Shown piece after piece: positions 19,616 to 45,913 of a stretch of 64,000 bases of DNA (the first letter of the stretch is position 1; each line of letters starts with the position of its first letter). This DNA comes from Chryseobacterium sp. BLS98 (GTDB taxonomy: Bacteria > Bacteroidota > Bacteroidia > Flavobacteriales > Weeksellaceae), in contig NZ_LFNF01000004.1 in assembly GCF_001045445.1 (NCBI RefSeq), forward strand, positions 124,001-188,000, in the 5' to 3' direction. Below the pieces are notes generated by a model, which was given only the letters and a program-made list of their open reading frames with translations, was not told where the DNA came from and searched no databases. The position numbers were made by a program, and so were the translations under genes.

Positions 19616-20020
19616 ATGAAAAAACTTTTAAATATTGGATTTTCTGCATTGTTTTTAGGGTTGGTTTTTATCTCCTGTGAAGATGATGATTACCAGACCG
19701 TGCAGTCCATAGAGAGAATCAGGATCGACAGTGTAAAGATCATGAAGGATACTATGGATGTCTATTCAATACAGAGCATTAAGACGTATTCTACATATTC
19801 GTCCCAATGTGAGGGGTTTTACGGATATGATTACATCCACGACAGCAGTCTGCAAAGATCTGTTACCGCTTATAAATATATTACTGAAGGACCTTGTACA
19901 CAGGAAACCCATGTAGGAACCAGCCAGATTAAATTCAGCCCGCGCCAGACAGGAACTTACACCTTCAGATTCTGGAACGGCAGCAACAGCTGGATCACCA
20001 AAACAATTGTAGTTAAATAA
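19616..20020 (+). CDS. Small lipoprotein of unknown function
   Basis: A 134-residue predicted lipoprotein. The N-terminus MKKLLNIGFSALFLGLVFISC ends in a lipobox with the lipidated Cys at about residue 21, followed by EDDDY, an acidic stretch close to the lipoprotein export signal used for surface display in Bacteroidota. The ATG at 19616 is chosen over 19592 because it gives a normal lipoprotein signal. The mature part has several Cys and Tyr (QCEGFYGYDY, GPCTQET) and a beta-rich end (TGTYTFRFWNGSNSWITK), suggesting a small beta-sandwich. The family is not recognised. Its stop overlaps the next ATG by one base, so the two are coupled. Confidence 0.72.
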   Translation: MKKLLNIGFSALFLGLVFISCEDDDYQTVQSIERIRIDSVKIMKDTMDVYSIQSIKTYSTYSSQCEGFYGYDYIHDSSLQRSVTAYKYITEGPCTQETHVGTSQIKFSPRQTGTYTFRFWNGSNSWITKTIVVK

Positions 20021-26721: not shown

Positions 26722-27510
26722 TTAAGCCTCCTCATCATTGGAGATAGGATACTGGTTGGCAGCATTGTGTATTTTACTTTTGAATTTATACAGATACGGA
26801 GCTTTGTTTGCAGATCCGTCGTACAGTTTTTCCAGTCTGTCCAGGATGTTTAAGCTTAATATCTTGCGTTGGAAATTGTTTCTCCTGAATTTTTCCCCTA
26901 AAATAGTTTCATACAAGGATTGAAGATCTTTCATGGTGAATTTTTCAGGAAGAAGATTGCTGGCAGCAACCTCAGTATTGATATTCATACGCAGGTATTC
27001 AAGACCGGTCTCTATAATCCTGTCGTGGTCAAAAGCCATCTTGGGTAGATTATTTACTTCAAACCATTCACAGCTTTCGTTAAATGCATCAGGAAAAGTA
27101 TTGGCAATGGAAAAATCAATAAGGCTGCAGTAAGCTACTGTAATGAATCTCTGAAAAATCCAGTGATCTTTCGGAACTTCAATTCCTTTATTATTGAGAA
27201 GAATCTGGTGTACATTATTCTCCGTACGGTCTATTCTCCCGAATGTGTGAAATTGCTTCAGGAAAAGATCTTTCAGATGAGTTCTTTCATATAAGACCCT
27301 GGCTGCCGCTTCACGGAGATCTTCATCATTGAAAACAAAACCTCCTGGCAGAGACCACAAATCCAGATCATGATATTTCAAAAGAAGAACCTTCAAAATA
27401 TTATTGTGAAAACCAAATATGGTACAGTCAACAGATACATGTGCTACAAAGTCTTTTGTATCAATAAGTTCCTGAAGCGTTTCTTTGTTTTTGGTTTCTT
27501 TGATTTTCAT
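26722..27510 (-). CDS. NUDIX-fold transcriptional regulator (NrtR/AraR type)
   Basis: A 262-residue regulator built from an N-terminal NUDIX domain and a C-terminal winged helix. The Nudix box region (about 57-79) reads GFVFNDEDLREAAARVLYER; the G-x5-E and R positions are kept, but of the REUXEE glutamates one is Val and another is Arg, so hydrolysis is unlikely and the domain probably binds a ligand. The C-terminal part (from LLPEKFTMKDLQSLYETI) matches the NrtR-type winged helix. In Bacteroidota such proteins control sugar genes (for example AraR of Bacteroides thetaiotaomicron). It lies 22 bases after the MFS transporter and is divergent from the beta-glucan locus, so it probably senses a sugar and regulates that locus. 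Confidence 0.85.
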   Translation of the reverse strand: MKIKETKNKETLQELIDTKDFVAHVSVDCTIFGFHNNILKVLLLKYHDLDLWSLPGGFVFNDEDLREAAARVLYERTHLKDLFLKQFHTFGRIDRTENNVHQILLNNKGIEVPKDHWIFQRFITVAYCSLIDFSIANTFPDAFNESCEWFEVNNLPKMAFDHDRIIETGLEYLRMNINTEVAASNLLPEKFTMKDLQSLYETILGEKFRRNNFQRKILSLNILDRLEKLYDGSANKAPYLYKFKSKIHNAANQYPISNDEEA

Positions 27511-27532
27511 GGCATAAAAATAAAATTATTTT

Positions 27533-28720
27533 CTATAATTTCTTTGCTGTCAGCCTAAAATATATCAAACTGACTGTAAACAGCACACAAACAGCCAGTA
27601 ATGTGTACATCGGATAGTAATTCAACAGCCGTTTTTCAAACAGGACAGCCATGATAATAGAGCTCAGAGAACTTCCCAATGAAGAGAAAATAACAATAAG
27701 TGAAGTAAACAGATTGATTTTTTCTTTGTCAATCTGTGCAATCATCTTTGAATTGATAACAGGGTAGAGCGGTGCCAGAAAAAGCCCGATGACAGGGAAT
27801 AAAAACAAAATAATGCTGGAATTTACAGAATCAAAATACTGAATTCCTAAAATGATGATCAGCACCCCTATAATTAAAAAAAGACACAAAATATAATACC
27901 TTGACAACGAAAACCTCTGAATGATATTAGCGGTAAGTGTTCTTCCTGCATAAGAGAAAAGGGCGAGAAAGGAAGTGGCTTGTAAAGCAAAAAAAGAATT
28001 GACGTTCAGGTGATTTTTATAAAATGAAGGCAGCCATGAATTAAATCCCTGTTCCACAAATACAATGAAAAAGATAACAAAGAGAAATACAATCGTTGCC
28101 GGTTTTACAAATACTGAGAGTTCAGAAATAAGATTTTTACTGTCCGTTTTTTGAGTTTCCGAAATATTCAGCTTTGAAAATAAAAATATCGTTACTGCAC
28201 AAAGTACCGATATAGACAGGAATCCAAATTTCCAGTATTCTGAATAACGGCTGGAGATCAGCCATCCGAAACCGGTATTAACTATAAAAATTCCGATCAT
28301 GAATGATGCCTCTACACTGTTCATCATTTTGGCAAGAGACTTTTCATCTGAAATATTATTACGGATAATCCCGAAAACACAAATTTTACCCACTGCAAAA
28401 CACGTCCCGATAATGGCAAACCATACCTTATAAAACCAGAAATCTTCTACAAACGGCAGCAGGCAGGAGCAGACTCCTACGATGATAAGGGCGGAGATCA
28501 ACGCTCTTTTTGTTCCGGTTTTACTGATGAAATTCACAGCAAAAAGAGAAATAAAAGCAATGGGAAGATCCTTGAACGATTCCAGAAAACCTAGCTTTTC
28601 ATAAGTGATGTTTGCCTCCGAAAGCTGAAGAATAACAATGCCCATGCAGTTTAGGACCATTGAAAAAATAAGAAAGGTCAGTTTTAAAGGAAGTGAGATT
28701 CTGGAAAGCTTGGCTGTCAT
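27533..28720 (-). CDS. MFS transporter, probable sugar permease
   Basis: A 395-residue inner-membrane protein with about 12 transmembrane helices, of the major facilitator superfamily and nearest in shape to FucP-like sugar transporters of Bacteroidota. Visible features are KDLPIAFISLFAVNFISKTGTKRAL (loop 2-3 signature region) and FPVIGLFLAPLYPVINSKM (helix 10). It is first in a two-gene leftward unit with the NUDIX regulator and divergent from SusC, with 177 bases between. It most likely imports glucose or a short gluco-oligosaccharide released by the adjacent glycosidases. The substrate is inferred from context only. Confidence 0.82.
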   Translation of the reverse strand: MTAKLSRISLPLKLTFLIFSMVLNCMGIVILQLSEANITYEKLGFLESFKDLPIAFISLFAVNFISKTGTKRALISALIIVGVCSCLLPFVEDFWFYKVWFAIIGTCFAVGKICVFGIIRNNISDEKSLAKMMNSVEASFMIGIFIVNTGFGWLISSRYSEYWKFGFLSISVLCAVTIFLFSKLNISETQKTDSKNLISELSVFVKPATIVFLFVIFFIVFVEQGFNSWLPSFYKNHLNVNSFFALQATSFLALFSYAGRTLTANIIQRFSLSRYYILCLFLIIGVLIIILGIQYFDSVNSSIILFLFPVIGLFLAPLYPVINSKMIAQIDKEKINLFTSLIVIFSSLGSSLSSIIMAVLFEKRLLNYYPMYTLLAVCVLFTVSLIYFRLTAKKL

Positions 28721-28865
28721 TTTGGGGATTTTTTTTATTGTTTTTTTATGATTTTTTTATGAATTATGAAGATAAAATAGAGCTTTCAGCCCCCAAAAAT
28801 AAACGAAAAATTAAAATAATTGTGAATACAATGTTAAATAATTAAAAAAAAATATATTTTTATTG

Positions 28866-28878
28866 TCTCAATTTGAGA
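28866..28878. promoter_or_regulatory. Candidate operator in front of SusC
   Basis: TCTCAATTTGAGA is a palindrome except for its central base. It lies 19 bases before the SusC ATG in the divergent gap between the NUDIX regulator/MFS unit and the glucan locus. It is a plausible binding site for the NUDIX regulator; this is inference from position only. Confidence 0.4.
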
Positions 28879-28897
28879 ATTAAAAAACTAACTGTAT

Positions 28898-31816
28898 ATG
28901 AATCGAAGAATATCAAGAAGTCTGGGATTGGTTGCCGTGCTGTATTTTACAGCCAATTTTAGTGCACAGACCAGCGTAAAGGACACTGTTCCGAAAGAGA
29001 ATAAAATTGAAGAGGTTATCGTGATCGGTTACGGAACACAGAAAAAAAGTAATGTGACCGGAGCTATTGCAAGTATTAAAGCAAGCGATATAGAAAACAT
29101 TCCGGCAGGGAAGCCTGAGCAGGTTTTGCAGGGTAGAGCCGCAGGTGTTTCCGTTGTGACCAATTCCGGGCAGCCCGGTGCTGCTGCAACAGTAAGGGTG
29201 CGTGGGATTACCAGTTTTGGAGCTGGGAGTAACAGCCCTTTATGGGTAGTGGATGGTATTGTGGTGGATAATATCGGATGGCTGAACCAGTCGGACATAG
29301 AAAGTATGGAAGTACTGAAAGATGGAGCATCATCGGCTATCTATGGGGTTTCTGCTGCAAAAGGGGTAATTCTGGTAACAACAAAAAAAGGAAAAAAGGG
29401 AAAACTCAGTCTTTCCTATAATGGGTTTTATGGATTTTCAAACACTTCCAAAAAACTAGATCTTTTAGATGCCACCCAGTATGCGAACATCATCAATGAA
29501 GGTTTCATCAATGACGGGCAGGCACCGAGATATGCCAACCCAGCCTCTTTTGGAAAGGGAACAAACTGGCAGGATGCGATCTTCGGAACCGGCGAAAAAT
29601 CTTCTCATGAGGTAAGTATTACCGGAGGTAACGAGAAATCAACCTATTATACATCGTTCGGGTATTTTGATCAGACGGGTATTGTAATGAGTGATATTTC
29701 CTATTACAAAAGAATCAATGCCAGATTCAACTCAACACATAAGGTAACGGATTATTTAACCATAGGACAAACCTTTGCCTATACGAGAACAAAATCCCAG
29801 GGAATCAGTGCCAATGAAGAATATGGTGGGCCATTAGCTTCAGCTGTAAACTTAGATCCAACCACTCCGGTAGTTGTTACAGATTGGTCTACAGTAGATC
29901 CTAGTGGCTATACCAACCCCTATATCATCCGTGATGAGAATGGTAATCCGTACGGAATTTCCCGTTACGTTAACCAGGAAATGACCAATCCGCAAGCCTT
30001 CAAGCATATTCAGCAGGGAAATTACAACTGGTCTGATGATTTTGTAGGAAATGTTTTTGCTGAGCTTAAATTTCTTAAAAACTTTACCTTCAAAACGAGT
30101 CTTAACGGCAAAAAATCCTATTGGGGAAGCCGCACTTTTACACCGAAATACTATTTAAGTCCCAATTATAGCAATACCAGCTTTAACAGCCTGAATAAGG
30201 TAGACGAAAATAAGTTCGAATGGAGTATGGAAAATACACTGACTTATCAGAATAAATTCGGTAACCATAATTTGAGTGTATTGATCGGACAAGGGGTATA
30301 CCGGTATAATATTTCCGGAGGGACAAGTTTGACGTACACTAATTTACCTATTGATAACTGGCAGGATGCCTCTTTCAATTTTAATATTCCTCAGGATGAT
30401 ATTACAGCTACGGGATGGGACGGAATTCAAACCCGTAAGGCATCTTATTTCGGAAGGATCATTTATGATTATGCTGATAAATATTTATTTACAGGAACAA
30501 TCCGTAGAGATGGTTCATCAAAATTTGCCACCAATCAGCACTGGGGAACTTTTCCATCGATGTCTTTAGGCTGGAATGTTCACAAAGAAAACTTCTGGCC
30601 ACAAAATAAAGTGGTTAATAACTTAAAATTAAGAGGAGGTTACGGAGTTTTAGGAAATGATGAAATGGAGAACTTCAGGTTTGCAAGTTTCATGGTTTCC
30701 GGAAGCAATTATACCAATGCCGGAAACAATATTATCATAGGCTATGCACCAAGTACACTGGAGAATCCGAACCTGAAATGGGAAGAGACCAGCCAGCTGA
30801 ATATTGCTGCGGATTTAAAGCTTTTCAATAACTTCACTTTTACGGCAGACTGGTACAAAAAGAAAACATCCGATATCTTAAGACAGGTAAATATCCCGGG
30901 TTATGTAGGCGTTCCTAATTTACCTTGGGCAAACGTTGGAGATATGGAAAACACAGGTCTTGAATTGGAATTAGGTTACAAAAAGAACTGGGAGGATTTC
31001 AGCATATCAGTTAATGGAAACTTTGCTACTATTAAAAACAAAGTTTTGAGATTGGAAGATGATATAGACTATTTCAACCTTGCTTCTTTCCAGACTATGG
31101 GAGCGGTGTCCAGGGTAGCAGTAGGGCAGCCTTACGGTTCGTTTTACGGATACACATATAGTGGTGTTTTCCAGAATCAGGCACAGATTGATTCCTATGT
31201 TAATGCCAATGGAACCAAATTATTGGCCAATGCCCAACCAGGAGACTTTATCTGGCAGGACAATAATGGCGACGGTAAAATTGATGACAATGATAAAGTA
31301 AACTTAGGAAGTTCTATCCCGAAATATACTTTTGGACTTACAGTCAATTTAAATTACAAGAATTTCGATTTCATGATGTTTGCACAGGGACAGGCAGGAA
31401 ATAAAATTTTCCAGGGCTTAAGAAGATTGGATATGCTGGATGCCAATTATCAGACAAAAGTTTTAGATCGATGGACTGGGGAAGGTTCTACCAATGATAA
31501 CCCGAGAATTACAAGGAACGATCCTAACCATAATTATTCCTGGATGTCCAGTTATTATCTTCAGAAAGGAGATTATGTCCGTTTGAAAATCATTCAGTTA
31601 GGATATACACTTCCTCAGGAAGTTACCAACCGTTTTGGAATGAATAAAGTAAGGCTGTACATAACGGGAGAAAATGTCTTCACTTTCACCAAATATACAG
31701 GCTACGATCCGGAAATTGCAGGAAGAAACAATTCCGAACAAGATATAATAGGAGTTGACAGAGCTTACTATCCACAAGCAAGAACATTTTTGCTAGGTGC
31801 TAATATCCAATTTTAA
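28898..31816 (+). CDS. SusC/RagA family TonB-linked outer membrane protein
   Basis: A 972-residue outer-membrane transporter that takes up oligosaccharide together with SusD. After the signal peptide (MNRRISRSLGLVAVLYFTANFSAQ) comes a TonB box-like EEVIVIGYGTQKKSNVTGAI, then the plug (VLQGRAAGVSVV, TVRVRGITSF, PLWVVDGIVVDN, IESMEVLKDGASSAIYG) and a C-terminal beta-barrel ending RTFLLGANIQF. The N-terminal carboxypeptidase-regulatory-like domain of most SusC proteins is missing, because the plug starts within ~35 residues of the signal peptide. It is the first gene of the rightward glucan operon and is followed 3 bases later by SusD. Confidence 0.95.
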   Translation: MNRRISRSLGLVAVLYFTANFSAQTSVKDTVPKENKIEEVIVIGYGTQKKSNVTGAIASIKASDIENIPAGKPEQVLQGRAAGVSVVTNSGQPGAAATVRVRGITSFGAGSNSPLWVVDGIVVDNIGWLNQSDIESMEVLKDGASSAIYGVSAAKGVILVTTKKGKKGKLSLSYNGFYGFSNTSKKLDLLDATQYANIINEGFINDGQAPRYANPASFGKGTNWQDAIFGTGEKSSHEVSITGGNEKSTYYTSFGYFDQTGIVMSDISYYKRINARFNSTHKVTDYLTIGQTFAYTRTKSQGISANEEYGGPLASAVNLDPTTPVVVTDWSTVDPSGYTNPYIIRDENGNPYGISRYVNQEMTNPQAFKHIQQGNYNWSDDFVGNVFAELKFLKNFTFKTSLNGKKSYWGSRTFTPKYYLSPNYSNTSFNSLNKVDENKFEWSMENTLTYQNKFGNHNLSVLIGQGVYRYNISGGTSLTYTNLPIDNWQDASFNFNIPQDDITATGWDGIQTRKASYFGRIIYDYADKYLFTGTIRRDGSSKFATNQHWGTFPSMSLGWNVHKENFWPQNKVVNNLKLRGGYGVLGNDEMENFRFASFMVSGSNYTNAGNNIIIGYAPSTLENPNLKWEETSQLNIAADLKLFNNFTFTADWYKKKTSDILRQVNIPGYVGVPNLPWANVGDMENTGLELELGYKKNWEDFSISVNGNFATIKNKVLRLEDDIDYFNLASFQTMGAVSRVAVGQPYGSFYGYTYSGVFQNQAQIDSYVNANGTKLLANAQPGDFIWQDNNGDGKIDDNDKVNLGSSIPKYTFGLTVNLNYKNFDFMMFAQGQAGNKIFQGLRRLDMLDANYQTKVLDRWTGEGSTNDNPRITRNDPNHNYSWMSSYYLQKGDYVRLKIIQLGYTLPQEVTNRFGMNKVRLYITGENVFTFTKYTGYDPEIAGRNNSEQDIIGVDRAYYPQARTFLLGANIQF

Positions 31817-31819
31817 TAA

Positions 31820-33379
31820 ATGAATAAAATGAAAAATAAGAATTTTATATATAAAGGGCTTGCTATTACTTTTCTTACAGGCCTGAGTTTTAGCAATATT
31901 GCCTGTAGTGACTCATATCTGGATGATGTAAAGAATTCGGGTTCTTTTAATACCGACCTGTATTTTCAGAATGAACAACAGTCTTTTAGCGCATTGGTTT
32001 CCGTATATGATATTTTAAGAAAATATTCAGGAGGATTCGAAAATACAGTTACATTTTTTAATGCAGGATCTGATGACTTTTATTCCGGTGGTGGAAATTC
32101 CAACGATGGAGCCGGAATCCAGGGAATGAATAATTATACCATTAATCCCAATACTATGCCTGCAAGTTACTGGAAAGATTTTTATCAAGGGATAGCACGT
32201 GCTAATCTCTTAATAGAAAAAGTTCCGGGAGCTACTATGGGTGAAGATATTAAAAAAAGATATATTGCAGAGGCCAAAGTACTCCGGTCCCTATACTATT
32301 TCGAATTGGTAAGAATGTTTGGAAATATTCCTTTAGTGCTCAAAACTATTCAGTTTGGTGATGATTACTGGAATATACCACAGGCGCTACCAAGTGATGT
32401 ATATGCGCAGATAGAAAGTGACATCAATGCAGCCATTCCAGATTTAATGATGACGTCTAGCGGTAATGATAAGGGTAGAATTACACAAGGAACAGCCAGA
32501 GCAATATTAGGTAAAATTTATCTTTATGATAAAAAAATGCCCGAAGCCGCAACACAGTTTGCAGCTGTGAATGGTACACCGGGAGGAATCAGCCAATACG
32601 GATATAAGCTTGTAGCCAACTATGCTGATCTATTCAAAGTGGGGCCGGAAACGGCAGATCCATATAAATTTTCAACAGAATCCATCCTGGAAGTCATGCA
32701 TACCAACAAAGGAAACTCCGACTGGGGCTTCTGGGGACAGGGAAAAGATGAAGGGAACTCTATCAATGTAATGGTGGGACCCCGTTCTTACTCTTTAAAA
32801 AATGTTCCGAATAATAACGCACCGGATATCTATTCCGGATGGGCTTTCAATACAGTAACGGATAACTTCGTTAATTTCATGCAGGGGGATCCCAGATTAA
32901 ACGTAACCGTTTTCAATGCGAAACAACTGGTTACTGATGGTAAAATTTCTTACAGCCCTGCCTTTGCAGATACCGGATATTTCTTAAATAAATATTTACC
33001 TACGAACGATTTAAAAAGCTCACTTCCAGGACCGGCAGAACTTAACTTTAGGCAGAATTATGTCGCTATAAGGCTGGCGGACACTTATTTGATGGAAGCA
33101 GAAGCCTTAGGTGGCGCCGGAGGAAGAGCCCAGGCTCTTTTAGATGCAGTAAGAGCAAGAGTAGGTTTAGCGTCAGTTCCTGTTTCTTTACAGGCTATTA
33201 AAGACGAAAGAAGAAGAGAGCTTGCCGGAGAAGGACACCGATGGTTTGATCTTGTCAGATGGGGTGATGCTCCTTCAAAACTTGCCTTCAAAGGATTTAA
33301 AGCAAATAAAAATGAAATTCTTCCAATTCCGTTCAATGAATTGCCGAATACTGCTTTAAAACAAAACCCAGGCTACTAA
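31820..33379 (+). CDS. SusD/RagB family glycan-binding lipoprotein
   Basis: A 519-residue surface lipoprotein that caps SusC and binds glycan. The signal ends in a lipobox, FSNIAC, with Cys29 lipidated, followed by SDSYLDD. The helical TPR-like SusD core is seen in AKVLRSLYYFELVRMFGNIPLV and in the family C-terminus YLMEAEALGGA and RRRELAGEGHRWFDLVRWG, ending in the expected LPIPFNELPNTALKQNPGY-type tail. It begins 3 bases after SusC, so it is translated from the same message. The gene order SusC-SusD-GH30 defines the start of the beta-glucan locus. Confidence 0.95.
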   Translation: MNKMKNKNFIYKGLAITFLTGLSFSNIACSDSYLDDVKNSGSFNTDLYFQNEQQSFSALVSVYDILRKYSGGFENTVTFFNAGSDDFYSGGGNSNDGAGIQGMNNYTINPNTMPASYWKDFYQGIARANLLIEKVPGATMGEDIKKRYIAEAKVLRSLYYFELVRMFGNIPLVLKTIQFGDDYWNIPQALPSDVYAQIESDINAAIPDLMMTSSGNDKGRITQGTARAILGKIYLYDKKMPEAATQFAAVNGTPGGISQYGYKLVANYADLFKVGPETADPYKFSTESILEVMHTNKGNSDWGFWGQGKDEGNSINVMVGPRSYSLKNVPNNNAPDIYSGWAFNTVTDNFVNFMQGDPRLNVTVFNAKQLVTDGKISYSPAFADTGYFLNKYLPTNDLKSSLPGPAELNFRQNYVAIRLADTYLMEAEALGGAGGRAQALLDAVRARVGLASVPVSLQAIKDERRRELAGEGHRWFDLVRWGDAPSKLAFKGFKANKNEILPIPFNELPNTALKQNPGY

Positions 33380-33381
33380 AA

Positions 33382-34809
33382 ATGAAGTTTCACAACTTAT
33401 ATAGTTTCTTTTTTAAAGGTACTGCGCTGCTTTGCGGCGTGGTACTTTTTCCTCTATCATGCGCTTCGGTAAATGGAAATAAAGAAAATGAAGTTCAGTC
33501 TTGGCTGACGAAAGGTAATGAAAGTGTAAAATTACAAAAGCAAGCTCCTGTTAAATTTACTAAAAATCCTAATGGCTGGCAGAATATTGAAATTGATGAC
33601 ACTCAAAAATTTCAATATGTTGACGGTTTTGGATATACATTGACAGGAGGCAGTGTTGAGGTGATCAACCGGCTTTCACCCTCAAAAAGGAAAGCGCTTC
33701 TGAATGAACTCTTCGGAAAAGATGAAAATTCAATTTCCATAAGCTATCTTCGTCTCAGTATCGGAGCTTCCGATCTTGACGGGGAAGTTTTTTCCTATGA
33801 TGATCTGCCGGAAGGTCAGACAGACCCCACGCTATCCAAATTCAGTCTGGAAAGGGATAAAGATCTGATCGCCATACTGAAAGAAATCCTTACGATTAAT
33901 CCTAAAATTAAAATCATTGCAGCTCCTTGGTCATCACCGGTTTGGATGAAAGCTAACGGAAAATCCAAAGGAGGAAGCCTCAAACCGGAATTTTATAAAG
34001 TGTATGCAGAATACTTTGTAAAATACATCCAGGGAATGAGAAAAGAAGGCATTGCTATCGATGCCATTACGCCTCAGAACGAACCCCTTCACCCCGGAAA
34101 CAATCCGAGTCTGTATATGCCGTCCGAACAGCAGAGAGATTTTATTAAAGGTCATTTGGGTCCTGTTTTTAAAGCCAACAACATCAAAACAAAAATTGTG
34201 GTTTATGACCATAACTGCAACAAACCGGAATATGCCCTTGATATTCTGAAAGATGCGGAAGCCTATCAGTATATTGACGGGTCAGCTTTCCATTTGTACG
34301 AAGGAGATATTTCCGCTTTAAGTACGGTGCATAATGCTTTTCCTGATAAAAATTTGTATTTTACCGAACAGTGGACCGGTTCAAAGGGAACTTTTAATGA
34401 AGATCTCAACTGGCATGTTAAAAACGTTATCATCGGTTCTATGAGAAACTGGAGCAGTATTGCTTTAGAATGGAATTTAGCAAATGACCCTGAGTACAAA
34501 CCTCATACAGATGGAGGATGTACAGAATGTAAAGGAGCAATAACAGTTTCCGGCCGTGAAAATTTCACCAGGAATGTTTCCTACTACATCATTGCACACG
34601 CTTCCAGGTTTGTGCCTGCAGGCTCACAGCGTATTGCCTCTACACAAACGGAAACCATTTCTACTGCAGCATTTAAAACCCCTGCCGGAAAAACAGTGCT
34701 TATCGTTCAGAACGCAAACTCTGCCGATGAAAACTTTAATATCAAATATAACGGAAAGACTGCTCCCATAACCTTATCAGGAAATTCGGCAGCGACTTTT
34801 GTTTTTTAA
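33382..34809 (+). CDS. GH30 family glycoside hydrolase lipoprotein (beta-1,6-glucanase-like), first copy
   Basis: A 475-residue retaining glycosidase of family GH30. The signal ends in LFPLSC, with lipidated Cys27, so it is probably anchored at the outer membrane. The (beta/alpha)8 domain starts at YVDGFGYTLTGGS. The acid/base is Glu234 in TPQNEPLHPG and the nucleophile is Glu329 in YFTEQWTGS; APWSSPVWMKANG is also typical. A beta-sandwich side domain closes the protein (GSQRIASTQTETIS). GH30 members cleave beta-1,6-glucan or glucosylceramide; the neighbouring GH16 and GH3 favour beta-1,6-glucan side chains. It starts 2 bases after SusD. Confidence 0.9.
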   Translation: MKFHNLYSFFFKGTALLCGVVLFPLSCASVNGNKENEVQSWLTKGNESVKLQKQAPVKFTKNPNGWQNIEIDDTQKFQYVDGFGYTLTGGSVEVINRLSPSKRKALLNELFGKDENSISISYLRLSIGASDLDGEVFSYDDLPEGQTDPTLSKFSLERDKDLIAILKEILTINPKIKIIAAPWSSPVWMKANGKSKGGSLKPEFYKVYAEYFVKYIQGMRKEGIAIDAITPQNEPLHPGNNPSLYMPSEQQRDFIKGHLGPVFKANNIKTKIVVYDHNCNKPEYALDILKDAEAYQYIDGSAFHLYEGDISALSTVHNAFPDKNLYFTEQWTGSKGTFNEDLNWHVKNVIIGSMRNWSSIALEWNLANDPEYKPHTDGGCTECKGAITVSGRENFTRNVSYYIIAHASRFVPAGSQRIASTQTETISTAAFKTPAGKTVLIVQNANSADENFNIKYNGKTAPITLSGNSAATFVF

Positions 34810-34818
34810 TTTAATATC

Positions 34819-37041
34819 ATGAAAAAAGCTTATTTCTTACTTGCAGTTGCAGCATTGGGAATCAATGTCTGCGGGCAGAAAACTATCGATCAGAAGGTGG
34901 CAGAACTCCTGTCTAAAATGACATTGGAAGAAAAAGTAGGGCAGATGGTGCAGTACAGCGGCTTCGAATATGCTACCGGACCCCAGCAGTCCAATTCTGC
35001 AGCGGTATTGGAAGAAATAAAAAAAGGAAAAGTAGGTTCTATGCTTAATGTAGCCGGAGCCGGGGAAACCAGGGCCTTCCAGAAGCTGGCCCAGCAGTCC
35101 AGACTGAAAATTCCTTTACTGTTTGGCCAGGATGTGATCCATGGATACAGAACAACCTTTCCTGTCAATTTAGGGCAGGCCGCAAGCTGGGATCTGGATA
35201 TGATAGAAAAATCAGAAAGAATTGCAGCTACGGAGGCTTCTGCTTACGGTATTCACTGGACTTTCGCGCCAATGGTAGATATTGCAAGAGACCCGAGATG
35301 GGGAAGGGTAATGGAAGGTTCCGGAGAAGACACCTATCTGGGCACCCGGATTGGTCTGGCAAGGATTAAAGGATTTCAGGGTAAAGGTTTGGGAAGTCTT
35401 GATGCTGTAATGGCCTGTGCGAAACATTTTGCAGCGTATGGAGCAGCTGTGGGCGGAAGAGATTACAATTCTGTGGATATGAGCCTAAGACAGCTGAACG
35501 AAACCTATCTGCCTCCTTTCAAAGCCGCAGCTGAAGCAGGAGTAGCCACATTCATGAATTCATTTAATGACATCAACGGAATCCCTGCTACAGCAAACCA
35601 ATATATTCAAAGAGAGTTGTTAAAAGGAAAATGGAACTATAAAGGTTTTGTAGTGTCAGATTGGGGAAGTATTGGGGAAATGATTCCTCACGGCTATGCC
35701 AAAGATGCCGGTGAAGCTGCTCAAAGAGCCATTTTAGGCGGAAGCGATATGGATATGGAAAGCCGTGTTTATATGGCAGAACTTCCAAAACTGATAAAAG
35801 AAGGAAAAGTAGATGCAAAACTTGTAGATGATGCGGCAGGAAGAATTTTAACCAAAAAATTCGAGATGGGCCTTTTCGATGATCCTTTCAGGTTCAGTGA
35901 TGAAAAAAGACAGAAAGAACAGACTGATAATCAGAAAAACAGACAATTCGGAAGAGAGTTCGGTTCAAAAAGCATTGTTCTTTTAAAGAATAAAGGAAAT
36001 ATCCTTCCTCTTTCAAAAAATATTAATACGGTGGCTCTCATCGGGCCTTTCGGGAAAGAAACTGTTGCCAATCACGGTTTCTGGTCTGTTGCGTTTAAAG
36101 ACGACAGTCAAAGAATTGTTTCTCAGTTTGACGGAATTAAAAATCAGCTTGATAAAAATTCAACCTTACTGTATGCAAAAGGCTGTAATGTAGATGATCA
36201 GGACAAATCCATGTTTGCAGAGGCAATAGAAACAGCTAAAAAAGCGGATGTGGTGATCATGACTTTAGGCGAAGGCCATGCCATGAGCGGGGAAGCTAAA
36301 AGCAGGAGCAGTATCGGCTTTTCAGGAGTTCAGGAGGAACTGTTGAAAGAAATTGCTAAAACAGGAAAGCCAATCGTTCTAATGATCAACGCCGGAAGAC
36401 CTTTGATTTTTAACTGGGCAGCAGATAATATTCCGGCAATAGCTTATACATGGTGGCTGGGAACTGAAGCCGGAAACTCCATCGCCGATGTTCTTTTCGG
36501 AACGGTAAACCCTGGCGGAAAACTTCCGATGACCTTTCCAAGGACTGAAGGCCAGATTCCTGTTTATTATAATCATTACAATACAGGAAGGCCTGCAAAA
36601 AATAATACGGACAGAAATTATGTTTCTGCTTATATCGATTTAGATAATGACCCTAAATTTCCTTTCGGATATGGATTAAGTTATACGGATTTTAAATATT
36701 CCGATATGATTTTAAGCTCCGCCAATCTTAAAGGAAATCAGACTTTAAATATCAGCGTAACGGTTTCCAATACCGGAAAATATGACGGAGAAGAAGTCGT
36801 ACAGCTTTATATCAGAGACCTTTTTGGAAAAGTAGTAAGACCGGTTAAAGAACTGAAAGGTTTTCAGAAAATATTCATCAAAAAAGGAGAGAGCAAGAAA
36901 GTGGATTTTAAACTGACTCCGGAAGACCTGAAATTCTTTGATAATGATCTGAATTATGATTGGGAAGGAGGAGAATTCGACATTATGGTAGGAACCAACT
37001 CTCAGGATGTTCAGACCAAAAGAATCAATTGGAATAAATAA
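34819..37041 (+). CDS. bglX: GH3 family beta-glucosidase
   Basis: A 740-residue retaining exo-glucosidase that releases glucose from the non-reducing end of beta-glucan oligosaccharides. A signal peptide (MKKAYFLLAVAALGINVCGQ) predicts the periplasm; the Cys near its end does not sit in a good lipobox. The N-terminal barrel shows GQDVIHGYRTTFPVNLGQAA and FAPMVDIARDPRWGR, with the nucleophile Asp281 in GFVVSDWGSIGE. The C-terminal alpha/beta domain (VVIMTLGEGHAMSGEAKSR) holds the likely acid/base Glu. A fibronectin III-like domain follows (DGEEVVQLYIRD). It matches BglX in length and order. It starts 9 bases after the GH30 stop. Confidence 0.93.
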   Translation: MKKAYFLLAVAALGINVCGQKTIDQKVAELLSKMTLEEKVGQMVQYSGFEYATGPQQSNSAAVLEEIKKGKVGSMLNVAGAGETRAFQKLAQQSRLKIPLLFGQDVIHGYRTTFPVNLGQAASWDLDMIEKSERIAATEASAYGIHWTFAPMVDIARDPRWGRVMEGSGEDTYLGTRIGLARIKGFQGKGLGSLDAVMACAKHFAAYGAAVGGRDYNSVDMSLRQLNETYLPPFKAAAEAGVATFMNSFNDINGIPATANQYIQRELLKGKWNYKGFVVSDWGSIGEMIPHGYAKDAGEAAQRAILGGSDMDMESRVYMAELPKLIKEGKVDAKLVDDAAGRILTKKFEMGLFDDPFRFSDEKRQKEQTDNQKNRQFGREFGSKSIVLLKNKGNILPLSKNINTVALIGPFGKETVANHGFWSVAFKDDSQRIVSQFDGIKNQLDKNSTLLYAKGCNVDDQDKSMFAEAIETAKKADVVIMTLGEGHAMSGEAKSRSSIGFSGVQEELLKEIAKTGKPIVLMINAGRPLIFNWAADNIPAIAYTWWLGTEAGNSIADVLFGTVNPGGKLPMTFPRTEGQIPVYYNHYNTGRPAKNNTDRNYVSAYIDLDNDPKFPFGYGLSYTDFKYSDMILSSANLKGNQTLNISVTVSNTGKYDGEEVVQLYIRDLFGKVVRPVKELKGFQKIFIKKGESKKVDFKLTPEDLKFFDNDLNYDWEGGEFDIMVGTNSQDVQTKRINWNK

Positions 37042-37048
37042 TTCAATA

Positions 37049-37100
37049 GGAGCGGGCTTTAGCCCGCTTAATGAAAAATATAACAACGGCTTTAGCCAAA
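37049..37100. repeat. REP-like repeat between GH3 and GH16
   Basis: AGCGGGC-ttta-GCCCGCT (37051-37068) is followed by a smaller hairpin GGC-ttta-GCC (37088-37097) in the stretch aacggctttagcc. The two share the core GGCTTTAGCC. This pattern is, from general knowledge, a repeated intergenic element in Chryseobacterium-like genomes. No T run follows, so it is not a standard terminator; it may stabilise the upstream mRNA. Confidence 0.6.
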
Positions 37101-37119
37101 CCTAATAATCATATTGTTC

Positions 37120-37929
37120 ATGAAAATAAAATCCCGAAATATCATCCGGTTCTGTGCAGCAGGAATATTACTTTTTTCTGTGGCAGGCTGTGCCTCAAAC
37201 AAAGCTGAACCGGGCAAAAAACTGATCTGGAGCGATGAGTTTAACGGTAAAGATCTTCCGGATTCTTCAAAATGGAACTATGATGTGGGAGGAGATGGCT
37301 ATGGAAATAAGGAAGCCCAGTTTTATACAAAGAACAGGCTTGAAAATGCCAGAATGGAAGGCGGAAATCTTGTTATTGAAGCCAGAAAAGAAAACTGGGA
37401 AAAGAATAAATATACTTCTGCAAGGCTTTTAACCAAAGGGAAATTTTCTTTTCAATATGGAACAGTAGAAGTAAGGGCAAAGCTTCCCAAGGGCCGGGGA
37501 ACCTGGCCCGCCATCTGGATGATGAGCGAAAATATGAAACAATGGCCAGATGACGGCGAGCTGGATATTATGGAACATGTAGGGTTCAATCAGGAGTATA
37601 TTCATGCTTCGGTTCACACGAAAAAATATAATCATATTCAGGGAACACAGAAAACAGATACGATGATTGTAAAAGACGTAAGTGAAAAATTCCATATATA
37701 TAAGGCAGACTGGACACCGGAGAAAATAGAGGTTTCCATTGACGGGCAGAAGTTCTTTACTTATGAAAATAAGGAGAAAACTTATGAAGCATGGCCTTTC
37801 GATCAGCCCTATTTTATTATTTTAAATCTGGCAGTTGGCGGTTTCTGGGGCGGAAAAGAAGGAATAGATGACCATATATTTCCGCAAAAATATTATATAG
37901 ACTATGTAAGGGTTTATCAAAATAAATAA
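37120..37929 (+). CDS. GH16 family endo-beta-1,3-glucanase (laminarinase) lipoprotein
   Basis: A 269-residue retaining endoglucanase of family GH16. The signal ends in FSVAGC, with lipidated Cys24. The jelly-roll core runs from LIWSDEFNGKDLPDSSKWNY to DYVRVYQ. The catalytic motif is DGELDIMEH, with nucleophile Glu147 and acid/base Glu152; the extra residue in E-L-D-I-M-E is the form typical of laminarinases rather than lichenases. The ATG at 37120 is used; a TTG two codons upstream adds nothing. It should cut the beta-1,3 backbone of laminarin-type glucan at the cell surface. Its stop overlaps an ATG of the next frame, but the next gene probably starts at 37971. Confidence 0.93.
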   Translation: MKIKSRNIIRFCAAGILLFSVAGCASNKAEPGKKLIWSDEFNGKDLPDSSKWNYDVGGDGYGNKEAQFYTKNRLENARMEGGNLVIEARKENWEKNKYTSARLLTKGKFSFQYGTVEVRAKLPKGRGTWPAIWMMSENMKQWPDDGELDIMEHVGFNQEYIHASVHTKKYNHIQGTQKTDTMIVKDVSEKFHIYKADWTPEKIEVSIDGQKFFTYENKEKTYEAWPFDQPYFIILNLAVGGFWGGKEGIDDHIFPQKYYIDYVRVYQNK

Positions 37930-37970
37930 TGAAGAGAGGGCTTTTGCCCAAAAACAGAAAGAAAAAAATT

Positions 37971-39410
37971 ATGAAAAAACTAATTGTGAGCTGTTTGACA
38001 GTAGGAGTGTTTCTGAATGCTAATGCACAAAACTATTGGAAAAAGAATGCGGGGAAAACAGCGAAAGTCATTTTAACAAGTTCCAAGACCAATGAAAAAA
38101 TGGCCGACAAAGGAATTGTTAAGTTTGAGAAATTCGGCCAGCCGAAGGAAACGGATGCATGTATTTTTGTAGATCCGGATTTTAAATACCAGAAACTGAT
38201 CGGGATAGGCGGTGCCATAACAGATGCCTCCGCAGAAACTTTTTATAAACTGCCCAAGAACAAGCAGAAAGAAATTATAGAAGCTTACTTTGGAAAAAAC
38301 GGATTAGGCTACACGGTAGTCCGTACCAATATGAACTCCTGTGATTTTTCCAGTGATTCCTATACCTATGTGCAGGATAATGATACGGCTTTAAAGACTT
38401 TCAATATTGCTCACGACGAGAAGTATAAAATCCCGATGATCAAAGAAGCTCAGAAAGCAATCGGGAAAGATTTTACATTTTACTTTTCTCCATGGAGTCC
38501 GCCGGCATGGATGAAATCCAATAAAAGCCTTTATAAAGGGGGAAGACTTGAAAATCAGTATTACCAGACCTGGGCAGATTATTATATTAAATTCATCAAA
38601 GAATACGAAAAAAGAGGAATTAATATCTGGGGTTTAACCGTACAAAATGAACCCATGGCCACTCAGACCTGGGAATCCTGTATTTATTCTGCAGAGGAAG
38701 AAGGTGAATTTCTTAAGAACAATTTAGGGCCAACCCTTTGGAAAAATGGCTACAAAGACAAGAAAGTGATGATCTGGGATCACAACAGGGATCTGATTTA
38801 CCAAAGAGCAACTACCACTTTAAGTGATCCTGAAACCTCAAAATATGCCAGCGGCATCGGCTACCACTGGTACGAAACCTGGAACAACAAAACCCAGCTT
38901 TTCGATAACTTATCGGAAACCCAGAGAGCTTTCCCGGATAAATTCCTGGCTTTCACAGAAGGCTGTAAAGAGCAATTCAAAATGTCCGGAATTTATGATG
39001 TGAGCCTGGGAGAATTATATGGAAGAAATATGCTGAATGATTTCAACAAAGGAACTGCCTTATGGACCGACTGGAATGTATTGCTTGATGAAACCGGAGG
39101 ACCTAATCATGTTGGCAATTTCTGTTTTGCCCCTATCATTGCCGATACCAAAACAGGAGAAGTACATTACACCTACGAATATTATTATGTAGGTCACGTA
39201 TCGAAATTCATCAAGCCCAATGCACAGAGAATAGGAAACTCTTCCAACAGAGCTGCCCTTACATCCACCACTTTCATGAATGAAAACGGCCAGCTGGTGA
39301 CCGTGATTATGAATGATTCCGAAAATGATATTGAAACCAATCTCTGGATTGAAGGAATGTCCGCCAAATTATCTGCGCCGGCCCATTCTATCCAGACTGT
39401 TATCCTGTAA
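37971..39410 (+). CDS. GH30 family glycoside hydrolase (glucosylceramidase-like), second copy
   Basis: A 479-residue retaining glycosidase of family GH30, distinct from the first copy. The signal peptide MKKLIVSCLTVGVFLNANAQ predicts export without a lipid anchor; the ATG at 37971 is chosen because the upstream ATG at 37929 adds a basic stretch (MKRGLLPKNRKKKI) in front of it. Key motifs are LIGIGGAITDASAETFYKL, FSPWSPPAWMKSN, the acid/base Glu227 in TVQNEPMATQTWES, and the nucleophile Glu330 in AFTEGCKEQF. The classic GH30 N-E-P-x and the longer barrel insertions resemble the GH30 group containing glucosylceramidases and beta-1,6-glucanases. It ends the glucan operon, followed by a strong hairpin. 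Confidence 0.9.
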   Translation: MKKLIVSCLTVGVFLNANAQNYWKKNAGKTAKVILTSSKTNEKMADKGIVKFEKFGQPKETDACIFVDPDFKYQKLIGIGGAITDASAETFYKLPKNKQKEIIEAYFGKNGLGYTVVRTNMNSCDFSSDSYTYVQDNDTALKTFNIAHDEKYKIPMIKEAQKAIGKDFTFYFSPWSPPAWMKSNKSLYKGGRLENQYYQTWADYYIKFIKEYEKRGINIWGLTVQNEPMATQTWESCIYSAEEEGEFLKNNLGPTLWKNGYKDKKVMIWDHNRDLIYQRATTTLSDPETSKYASGIGYHWYETWNNKTQLFDNLSETQRAFPDKFLAFTEGCKEQFKMSGIYDVSLGELYGRNMLNDFNKGTALWTDWNVLLDETGGPNHVGNFCFAPIIADTKTGEVHYTYEYYYVGHVSKFIKPNAQRIGNSSNRAALTSTTFMNENGQLVTVIMNDSENDIETNLWIEGMSAKLSAPAHSIQTVIL

Positions 39411-39462: not shown

Positions 39463-39586
39463 TCGGTTAGATTTCTAATCTTATTATTTTAAAAAGGGAC
39501 CTCGTAGAAAGGTCTGCAGTATTTATCATAAAATTATTTTTAATTTATGTATGAAGTTTTTCACTATTTTTGGCAAAATTTTAACC

Positions 39587-41116
39587 ATGAAAAAATATTT
39601 ACTGTTTTCTTTATTGGCATTTTCGAATATTGATGCTGCAGTTCTTTATGTTAATTCATCTGCGACAGGTTCAAACAACGGTCTTTCGTGGACTAATGCT
39701 TATACAGATTTACAGACAGCAATGAGTAATGCTATTTTTGGAGATGAGATTTGGGTAGCATCAGGAGTATACAAAGCCACTTCCACTACGGACAGGACCA
39801 TATCATTTAATATGAAAAACGGAGTCAACTTGTATGGTGGATTCAGTGGAACGGAAACTTCTGTAGGCCAAAGAAACATCAGTCAAAACCCAACAACACT
39901 TTCTGGAGATATAGGAGCTATTGGAGACAACACAGATAATACAAATACAATATTAAAAATTATTAGCACAACATCCGGGATAACAGTGGACGGCTTTAGA
40001 ATAATTTCCGGTAGAGGAGGAGGTTCTGCAGGCATATCATTAAACAACAATACAGGAATTATCAATATAAAGAACTGTTATTTCTATGATAACTTCGGAA
40101 GTACGGCAGGAGCTATATTCCAGGCTTACCAGGGAAATTATACAGTTAATGTTTCCAACTGTGATTTTATCAGCAATATAGCTGTTAATGGAGTTATTTT
40201 CTCTGACCAGTCAAGCAATAATAACCTTAATATTACCAACAGCAGATTTAAAGGCTCTGTAGCAGGAGGAATTGCCGTATTGAGCTTTGAAGCAGCCAAT
40301 TTTACTATGGACAGATGTATTGTTACAAATAATACTTCCACCCAATCCAGTATTGTGCATATTGCTGCGAAGGCTTCTTCCAGGATAAGCAATTCTCTTT
40401 TTGCAGGGAATTCATACAGCGAAAATGCTCTGGCATTGTATAGTCTCAGCGGTATTTCACAGATTTTGGAAAATATTACCGTTGCTCATAATAAAAAAGT
40501 ATTTCTGACCAACACATTCGAAACCGCTGTTTACAGTGTAAATGGCCAGGTTAAAGTATATAATTCTATTATTTACGGAAATACCAACTCTTCGAATAAT
40601 GATCAGATTGATGCAGGAAATACTGTATCCCATTCTATTGTAGAAAATGGATACGCTACCGGTACAGGTATTTTGAATGCTAATCCTATGTTTGTTAATC
40701 CTAATACTTTAAGTGCTGCCCCATTCGATTGTACTTCCTATAATTACCAGTTGCTGGCCGGTTCGCCTGCAATTAATACAGGAAACAATACTTTTGTTAC
40801 GCAAAGTCAGGATTTGCTTGGTAACGGCAGAACATCAGGATCTAATGTGGACATGGGGGCTTATGAAAAAACAGGAAACATGAGCGTGGATGAAGCTGTA
40901 AATAAGACGAAAAGCTTATTTTATGATTTTAAGAATGAAAATATTATAGTAAAGAATGGGAGAAACAATAATGTAATTGTTATTTACGACCAGTCAGGAA
41001 GAGCTGTTTTAAAAGCAGGTGTTAATAATTCTTTTTCTTTATCTCAGCTCTCGTCAGGAGTTTATTATGTAAATCTTCAGGATACAAAAGAAAATATAAA
41101 AATTATAAAGAAATAA
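39587..41116 (+). CDS. Parallel beta-helix protein with T9SS sorting tail
   Basis: A 509-residue secreted protein; the ATG at 39587 opens on the signal peptide MKKYLLFSLLAFSNIDA and is preferred over 39551. The mature part starts LYVNSSATGSNNGLSWTNAY, DLQTAMSNAIFGDEIWVASG and VYKATST, as in right-handed parallel beta-helix (pectate-lyase-like) surface proteins. Short repeats rich in Asn, Ser and Ile (NITNSRFKG, NCYFYDNFG) continue to about residue 420 and end in SPAINTGNN and NVDMGAYE, a usual ending for this group. The last ~70 residues form a T9SS type A sorting domain (VIVIYDQSGRAVLKAG, then LSSGVYYVNLQDTKE). No catalytic site is recognised, so it may be an adhesin or a glycan-binding protein. 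Confidence 0.82.
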   Translation: MKKYLLFSLLAFSNIDAAVLYVNSSATGSNNGLSWTNAYTDLQTAMSNAIFGDEIWVASGVYKATSTTDRTISFNMKNGVNLYGGFSGTETSVGQRNISQNPTTLSGDIGAIGDNTDNTNTILKIISTTSGITVDGFRIISGRGGGSAGISLNNNTGIINIKNCYFYDNFGSTAGAIFQAYQGNYTVNVSNCDFISNIAVNGVIFSDQSSNNNLNITNSRFKGSVAGGIAVLSFEAANFTMDRCIVTNNTSTQSSIVHIAAKASSRISNSLFAGNSYSENALALYSLSGISQILENITVAHNKKVFLTNTFETAVYSVNGQVKVYNSIIYGNTNSSNNDQIDAGNTVSHSIVENGYATGTGILNANPMFVNPNTLSAAPFDCTSYNYQLLAGSPAINTGNNTFVTQSQDLLGNGRTSGSNVDMGAYEKTGNMSVDEAVNKTKSLFYDFKNENIIVKNGRNNNVIVIYDQSGRAVLKAGVNNSFSLSQLSSGVYYVNLQDTKENIKIIKK

Positions 41117-45278: not shown

Positions 45279-45881
45279 TTATTTTTCAATTGGAGGAAGT
45301 CCCTGTAAAGCCCTGATTCTGTTAACTTGAGTGAGGTCCTCACCTGAAAATTGTTTTAGTTTATTTTCGTCTTGAAATTTATTCCAACTATTTGATTCTT
45401 CAATCTCTTCTCCATATAATTCTGTTAAAACTTCAGTGAAACTGTTTGCAACAAAATCCAAATTATAATAATCTGATTCTTTTTCGTGATCTTCAATAAT
45501 TATTTCTTTGTCTTCAACAATGAACTTTTGTTCGTGATCCCATCTTACAATGGTTGGATTATTTTCATTACTTCTGAAGTCATAACAAAGGAAGTTACCA
45601 CCAGGATCCATTGTAATAGGATATACTTTTTCAGGAATTTTATTTTTTAATTCTTGATATAGAGAAATAATGTTTTCTTCGGAATCTAAATTGAAGTTCA
45701 AAAGTTCCCCGAATGCTTTTCCAACCTGTCTGTTTGTATCAATTGTATTAGGAGACGGCGTAGCAGCATTATTTTCTAAAACTACATTTATGTAATCTGA
45801 AGGAAATTTGATTCCTAAAATTTCTTCAACTTTTTGAATTGAATTGGTATCCTTTAATTCTTTTTTATATAACCATTTCAT
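45279..45881 (-). CDS. SUKH (SMI1/KNR4) family immunity protein
   Basis: A 200-residue cytoplasmic protein of the SUKH superfamily, which supplies immunity proteins for many polymorphic toxins. The N-terminal signature is IQKVEEILGIKFPSDYINVV, followed by KVYPITMDPGGNFLCYDF and PTIVRWDHE, all typical of SMI1/KNR4. It lies 32 bases downstream of the nuclease effector on the same strand and is the last gene of the cargo unit, the normal place for a cognate immunity gene. It should bind and block the C-terminal nuclease domain of the effector. The C-terminal extension (NKFQDENKLKQFSGEDL) is beyond the core fold. Confidence 0.88.
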   Translation of the reverse strand: MKWLYKKELKDTNSIQKVEEILGIKFPSDYINVVLENNAATPSPNTIDTNRQVGKAFGELLNFNLDSEENIISLYQELKNKIPEKVYPITMDPGGNFLCYDFRSNENNPTIVRWDHEQKFIVEDKEIIIEDHEKESDYYNLDFVANSFTEVLTELYGEEIEESNSWNKFQDENKLKQFSGEDLTQVNRIRALQGLPPIEK

Positions 45882-45913
45882 AAATTAAATATTTTGACTT
45901 ATCAATTATTTTT

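Follow-up and report, generated by a model that had tools for sequence, protein, structure and literature searches.

Polysaccharide utilisation loci of the Bacteroidetes usually, although not obligatorily, carry a SusR, hybrid two-component or ECF-sigma regulator, and the question raised by the locus described here is what controls it in place of these. We analysed a stretch of 64,000 nucleotides (nt) from Chryseobacterium sp. BLS98 (the window, G000:C4:124001-188000, part of a 4.41-Mb genome), in which a susC-susD pair and four glycoside hydrolase (GH) genes are preceded by genes for an MFS transporter and a NUDIX protein. No SusR, hybrid two-component or ECF-sigma regulator was seen by eye among the open reading frames (ORFs) of at least 120 amino acids between positions 20000 and 46000. 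Our data suggest that this predicted beta-glucan locus is probably controlled by the NUDIX protein, acting as a sugar-sensing repressor of the NrtR/AraR type at an inverted repeat before susC.

A conserved inverted repeat and its occurrence at other genes

Alignment of the MFS-susC gap of the window with 26 related gaps revealed a single strongly conserved block before susC, TTTATTGTCTCA-N3-TGAGA. The core in the window, TCTCAATTTGAGA, occupies positions 28866-28878 directly before susC and lies within the 21-bp repeat ATTnTCTCAnnnTGAGAnAAT, whose outer right arm is imperfect; on a 26-point score, devised after the motif had been seen, the repeat reaches 23 points and is still the best match in the window. 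The exact core is present in 26 of the 27 aligned gaps, and the 27th (L074) has the variant palindrome TCTCTAAGAGAGA. Moreover, among 80 named loci, the core was found in all 76 that show both MFS and susC, nearly all of them from Chryseobacterium (the remaining four are cut off by a contig end). The same site is kept where SusC is only 33-34% identical (L050, L058, L059, L069 and L121) and stands beside conserved enzymes, and in these loci SusC/SusD appears to be an importer exchanged as a module under the same site. Matches to MFS and SusC adjoin the NUDIX gene in 74/74 full-length named loci, and the arrangement was found again in other genera of the family; it is therefore not due to chance. 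The NrtR/AraR family is characterised by dimers that bind a semi-palindromic operator at target promoters and lose DNA binding with a small-molecule effector. A conserved 21-bp repeat is present here, and its binding by the NUDIX protein is predicted.

A rearranged genome (G130) separates the two sides of the gap. Here the locus is found on contig C18 beside fabI and the MFS-NUDIX pair on C6 beside an acyl-CoA dehydrogenase gene; a site is present 18 nt before susC, and none was detected before MFS (best score 17/26). That the site stayed with susC suggests that it serves susC and not MFS-NUDIX.

In the genome that contains the window, TCTCANNNTGAGA occurs four times, twice inside unrelated genes, once before susC and once before an unlinked gene for a secreted GH3 protein. 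The site at the latter gene has the identical 13 bases, 47 nt before the ATG (repeat at G000:C2:351895-351915). When the 21-bp pattern was allowed up to three mismatches, 69 places were found, and 36 with the reversed pattern as control. Among the matches listed, the GH3 site alone is without mismatch, and the next ones have two. For the unlinked GH3, the best-fitting NCBIfam models are of mixed specificity (arabinopyranosidase, beta-glucosidase), and it stays below all of their cut-offs. Of 148 family genomes, 52 contain an orthologue of it (identity of at least 70%); the regulator is found in 51 of these, and the upstream stretches were inspected in all 52. All ten fixed core positions are retained in 43 of the 51 regulator-bearing loci and nine in the remaining eight, the weakest site being that of G045 (9/10, at a greater distance). 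The best score in the sole GH3-bearing genome without the regulator (G099) is 6/10 and the place reads, by eye, as a degenerate remnant, a contrast that represents one genome and one event.

The motif TAnnTTTG is the Bacteroidetes -7 box. The core is positioned 14-19 nt upstream of it in 26/34 regulator-bearing GH3 loci of the first set (27/51 overall) and so covers the -33 region; 16 of the 17 GH3 loci of the second set have no exact TAnnTTTG, and the promoter reading is thus not general. This position bears on the polarity of control. Polarity is assigned by analogy, and at susC it is unclear how the site lies with respect to the promoter; the NUDIX protein might thus be an activator at the same site, with the sugar-bound form recruiting polymerase to susC and GH3. 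We consider this unlikely, since a protein bound over the -33 region would block polymerase and since the characterised relative AraR is described as being released by its sugar (PMC4666351).

Across the family genomes, the stricter pattern TGTCTCANNNTGAGA was found in 58 of the 72 with a regulator orthologue (best E <1e-85) and in three of the 76 without (Fisher 9e-24), while the reversed-pattern control gave 17/72 and 10/76, respectively (p 0.14). The three positive genomes without the regulator have two sites inside genes and one that is unclear. In the 14 genomes that have the regulator but not the stricter site, cores in 20 stretches are mostly in unrelated genes or far from a plausible target. 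These data bear on whether the repeat could instead be bound by another transcription factor, with the NUDIX neighbour controlling something else. In favour of this, the regulator persists in 12 genomes that have neither the first GH30 of the locus nor the unlinked GH3, mostly without a convincing site; the co-occurrence of site and regulator, the degenerate site in G099 and the lack of a second regulator gene among the locus ORFs of at least 120 amino acids make it quite improbable.

The site also precedes other genes in relatives from some other genera. It is found before a GH5-type gene in G010 and G096 (the G010 protein has GH5 and carbohydrate-binding modules according to Pfam) and before a second susC/susD in G039. 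In G045 and G022 a perfect core is present 70-75 nt upstream of an MFS gene followed by a ROK kinase gene, and in G027, which is among the 12 genomes without the first GH30 and the unlinked GH3 (see below), a more distant MFS gene (32%) has a core 71 nt upstream. The MFS proteins of the G045/G022 type are nearest to the NCBIfam models NagP, GluP and FucP and the ROK kinase is nearest to glucokinase, all below the cut-offs. Among 22 genomes with an MFS of this type, several of which share one genus, the upstream score is 22-24/26 in nine of the 11 with the regulator (21 and 18 in the others) and 14-20/26 in all 11 without.

Some further observations concern sites and regulators outside these genes. 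In G043, G098 and G112, which belong to the same genus, a secreted esterase gene (L118, L119, L120) has an exact site approximately 36 nt ahead of its MKK start and is a possible target. In G143 (L198) and G134 (L202), neither of which has the glucan locus, the same core with conserved flanks (near 4034 and 4043, respectively) is followed after approximately 250 nt by a distant SusC-like gene (28-30%), possibly another target. In eight loci (L060, L061, L062, L065, L066, L072, L073 and L075) the regulator is kept without MFS or locus, and in seven of these it is beside an acyl-CoA dehydrogenase gene, with a small lipoprotein-like gene just upstream.

The NUDIX regulator and its place in the NrtR family

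The NUDIX protein has the domain order of the NrtR/AraR family, i.e. an N-terminal NUDIX-like domain and a C-terminal NrtR winged helix (Pfam), and its best PDB match is AraR of Bacteroides (5bs6, 3.3e-34). The Nudix box REUxEExGU reads R-V-L-Y-E-R-T-H-L; hence the two glutamates reported lost in the sequence-only reading are indeed gone and the glycine with them, which leaves an impaired signature. Both glutamates are also gone in the aligned orthologues. That reading had proposed a sensing role for the protein, and a non-catalytic regulator is supported, at the level of sequence, by the conserved site and the small regulon.

We compared pocket and DNA-contacting residues in an alignment of 29 orthologues (the one in the window included), paralogues and BtAraR, where BtAraR numbering was taken as chain index minus three. 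In the published account of BtAraR (BT0354), R86 and H131 hold arabinose, R180 intercalates into DNA, and the R34N variant stays DNA-bound with arabinose present (PMC4666351). R86 and H131 are retained in 29/29 orthologues, whereas R34 is replaced by Tyr in 28 of 29 (Trp in one) and R180 by Asn in all 29, and the stretch following R95 is approximately 21 residues longer than in BtAraR. In a maximum-likelihood tree the 29 orthologues form one clade (98/98) with the NAD type outside; several end branches are long and the placement of the xylose paralogue is unsure.

The genome encodes five NrtR_WHD proteins, the window protein included, and Pfam confirms the domains of the four paralogues. By eye, the AraR-like L323 is beside arabinose-type genes and the XylR-like L321 beside xylose-type genes, while L322, with an intact Nudix box and near NAD-related genes, is likely of the NAD type. 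The fourth, L320 (G000:C5:109368), is an orphan NrtR-type protein, 42-45% identical to the window regulator, with no evident sugar genes adjoining. That the NUDIX protein is AraR proper was considered and rejected, since its clade is separate in the tree, in which L323 groups with BtAraR (97/88), since R34 is Tyr, and since the AraR-like paralogue is the one found beside arabinose-type genes.

The domain order is also that of NrtR of NAD metabolism, and the nearest NCBIfam model is an ADP-ribose repressor (94 bits, below the cut-off of 400, a cut-off that is weak alone because the likely NAD-type L322 is also below it with 146 bits). It is nevertheless very unlikely that the protein is an NAD-type NrtR that senses ADP-ribose and couples glucan use to the energy state; it is placed elsewhere in the tree, L322 is the NAD-type candidate, and the neighbours and candidate targets of the window protein are sugar genes, with glucan genes as its context. 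An active Nudix hydrolase without regulatory role is hardly credible, for the Pfam NUDIX domain scores above its cut-off but the window protein and the aligned orthologues lack two box glutamates, and the NrtR winged helix is above its cut-off as well.

Among named organisms, the NUDIX protein has its closest relatives in Chryseobacterium, with 99% identity in C. oranimense DSM 19055. Among 19 loci of the genus, identity ranges between 77 and 96% for the regulator (at least 91% in 17) and between 63 and 91% for MFS. In another family, homologues 46% identical (L334, L335) are near GH3-like genes (39% and 24%), and the TCTCA repeat was not found in the stretches read; perhaps these homologues do the same job at a different operator.

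Proposed mechanism and its weighing

Our best reading, by analogy with AraR, is a repressor that is released by sugar. Without substrate, a NUDIX dimer on ATTnTCTCAnnnTGAGAnAAT at the susC promoter would keep the locus off, and the unlinked secreted GH3 gene would be silenced likewise from the copy of the repeat that covers its -33 region. Surface and periplasmic enzymes would free glucose or short beta-gluco-oligosaccharides, and a transporter, perhaps the divergent MFS, would move the sugar into the cytoplasm, where it would enter the dead Nudix pocket; the winged helices would then turn and the repressor would leave the DNA, as described for AraR with arabinose (PMC4666351). That the NUDIX protein binds the site, that it represses and that it senses glucose or a beta-glucodisaccharide are all three inferred, and such an effector is likely in view of the clear targets, which are genes of the beta-glucanase and beta-glucosidase types.

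Several points weigh against the repressor reading. The number of cores in the genome is not above chance, since the reversed control pattern occurs five times. The co-occurrence counts ignore the kinship of the genomes and the larger size of Chryseobacterium genomes, and approximately 12 of the 78 listed TGTCTCANNNTGAGA sites look like chance or are unclear (one each in G139, G091, G136, G145, G142, G072, G078, G106, G012, G013, G086 and G121); as no other site is present in G012 and G106, two of the 58 positives are weak. Moreover, orthologues of both the first GH30 of the locus (no match in ten genomes, 31-32% matches in two) and the unlinked GH3 are lacking in 12 of the 72 regulator-bearing genomes, and no glucan locus was seen beside the regulator in the nine of these that were inspected. 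The comparison of MFS genes of the G045/G022 type is confounded, with the ROK gene next in 11/11 genomes with the regulator and 1/11 without; the two groups differ in operon, only G002 (score 18) is therefore a like-for-like control, and the comparison is a hint about the effector, no more. The elements of the susC promoter are not clear in the gap sequences. With Asn at R180, the DNA contacts of AraR are not simply transferable to the window regulator, and its predicted structure, based on 18 close sequences, had a predicted local distance difference test score (pLDDT) of 39 and was dropped.

A broader proposal, which we regard as possible rather than probable, is that these proteins constitute a hexose-sensing branch of Nudix repressors, i.e. 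an NrtR sugar branch beside AraR and XylR with a Tyr-for-Arg pocket and a longer loop. It would read a cytoplasmic product of beta-glucan (glucose, or a disaccharide such as gentiobiose or laminaribiose that has been imported) and replace SusR or two-component sensing at glucan loci across a Bacteroidetes family; in some genera, sugar uptake and phosphorylation would be under its control too.

Gene products of the locus and comparison with known systems

All eight ORFs between 26722 and 39410 are present where the sequence-only reading had placed them, and Pfam and NCBIfam confirmed their families (Table 1). It had also described a divergent MFS/NUDIX pair; the pair is divergent from susC-susD-GH30-GH3-GH16-GH30 on the plus strand, but MFS and NUDIX, in this order, share the minus strand.

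Table 1. Features of the beta-glucan locus and its upstream gene pair (window positions)
Feature	Position	Strand	Evidence
NUDIX-winged-helix regulator, NrtR/AraR family, predicted repressor	26722..27510	-	Pfam NUDIX 2.8e-9, NrtR_WHD 4.3e-19, AraR_C 6.7e-10, all over cut-offs
MFS transporter, first gene of the MFS-NUDIX pair	27533..28720	-	Pfam MFS_1 3.5e-22
TATTTTTG, possible MFS-NUDIX promoter, fits Bacteroidetes -7 box TAnnTTTG	28794..28801	-	Sequence
Candidate operator, 21-bp inverted repeat ATTnTCTCAnnnTGAGAnAAT	28862..28882	.	Alignment of MFS-susC gaps
SusC-like TonB-dependent transporter	28898..31816	+	SusC/RagA TIGR04056 792 bits, cut-off 368
SusD-like protein	31820..33379	+	Pfam SusD_RagB 6.3e-26
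First GH30, closest to BT3312 endo-1,6-beta-glucanase	33382..34809	+	PDB 5ngk 6.1e-81
GH3 beta-glucosidase, BglX type	34819..37041	+	NF011678 806 bits, cut-off 666; PDB 3u48 4.9e-241
GH16, laminarinase-like	37114..37929	+	PDB 3iln laminarinase 2.9e-88
Second GH30, nearer to glucosylceramidase-type GH30 than to BT3312	37929..39410	+	PDB 2wnw 1.1e-76, 1ogs 4.8e-73, 5ngk 2.7e-41

An adjacent susC/susD pair with glycoside hydrolases defines a Bacteroidetes polysaccharide utilisation locus, and both are found here. In line with the earlier reading, a beta-1,3/1,6-glucan as substrate is supported by the predicted enzyme roles, since the first GH30 is closest to BT3312 and the GH16 to laminarinase; this glucan could be laminarin or fungal wall glucan. 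PDB entry 5ngk is BT3312, reported as an endo-1,6-beta-glucanase (PMC5481569); the first GH30, a tentative GH30_3 member, scored 371 bits against the corresponding NCBIfam model (NF053856), under the cut-off of 700. The signals of the first GH30 and the GH16 look lipoprotein-like by eye. The GH16 contains GELDIMEH, which we take to be the catalytic motif, and its ORF starts with TTG, an ATG being present two codons further; the real start of the second GH30 is probably an internal ATG at about 37971 (by eye). The TATTTTTG block is conserved in the 27-gap alignment, most strongly within the genus.

The MFS protein gave no PDB sequence match, either singly or with a profile of 16 orthologues. 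A structure model (pLDDT 67.8) matched functionally varied MFS proteins (NorA, FucP, G6P transporters), and fold matches this generic do not assign a substrate; from its context only, the protein perhaps carries glucose or a beta-glucodisaccharide, its role as an importer being likewise inferred.

Two neighbours beyond the locus were noted. Just past it, 39551-41116 encodes a secreted repeat-rich protein with a Por-secretion tail match of 21 bits (cut-off 27), for which no match was found in the related loci compared. On the minus strand, 45279-47584 encodes a large protein, rich in His at the C-terminus and containing the Hint-like stretch CFPAGTKVHTPNG; together with the small acidic protein encoded next to it, this looks by eye like a polymorphic toxin and immunity gene.

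Among known systems the regulator is most like BtAraR, with which it shares the NUDIX and winged-helix domains, the broken Nudix box and R86 and H131, and which is described with a 21-bp semi-palindromic operator and a regulon that includes SusC/SusD and glycosidase genes (PMC4666351). It differs in the residue changes, extra residues and separate clade given above, in having TCTCA-N3-TGAGA instead of the AraR site, and in its candidate targets, which are beta-glucan genes. XylR (BT0791) is likewise a sugar-linked regulator of the NrtR family but is tied in its description to xylose genes (PMC3878776), and the window genome has its own XylR-like L321. A further XylR, named together with an MFS transporter in PMC12125979, is presented there as AraC-type and so has no bearing on the NUDIX regulator. 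The locus itself resembles PUL1,6-beta-glucan of B. thetaiotaomicron (BT3309-BT3314) in SusC/SusD, the BT3312-related GH30 and GH3; that system is reported to have a SusR-type regulator and an SGBP gene, BT3313 (PMC5481569), while no SGBP gene was seen in the window locus, which has GH16, a second GH30 and the MFS-NUDIX pair in addition.

The control arrangement had been called uncommon in the sequence-only reading. This was overstated, because AraR and XylR are described in Bacteroides and the genome has five members of the family. As glucan loci go, this one is ordinary; its regulator is less so, though it has precedents. Among the matches listed from open-licence PubMed Central, we found neither a NUDIX regulator of a beta-glucan locus nor a hexose-type NrtR branch. 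What is new is the candidate operator and the small regulon; sugar regulators of the NrtR family are themselves already known.

The finding owes its value to the site and the small regulon; these make the hypothesis of control specific and cheaply checkable. If it is true, a flavobacterial polysaccharide locus gains a named candidate regulator and operator together with a small regulon, and the degenerate site without the regulator offers a natural contrast. A glucose polymer would then join NAD and pentoses in the range of the NrtR family, and beta-glucan genes in Chryseobacterium and its relatives could be predicted from the site.

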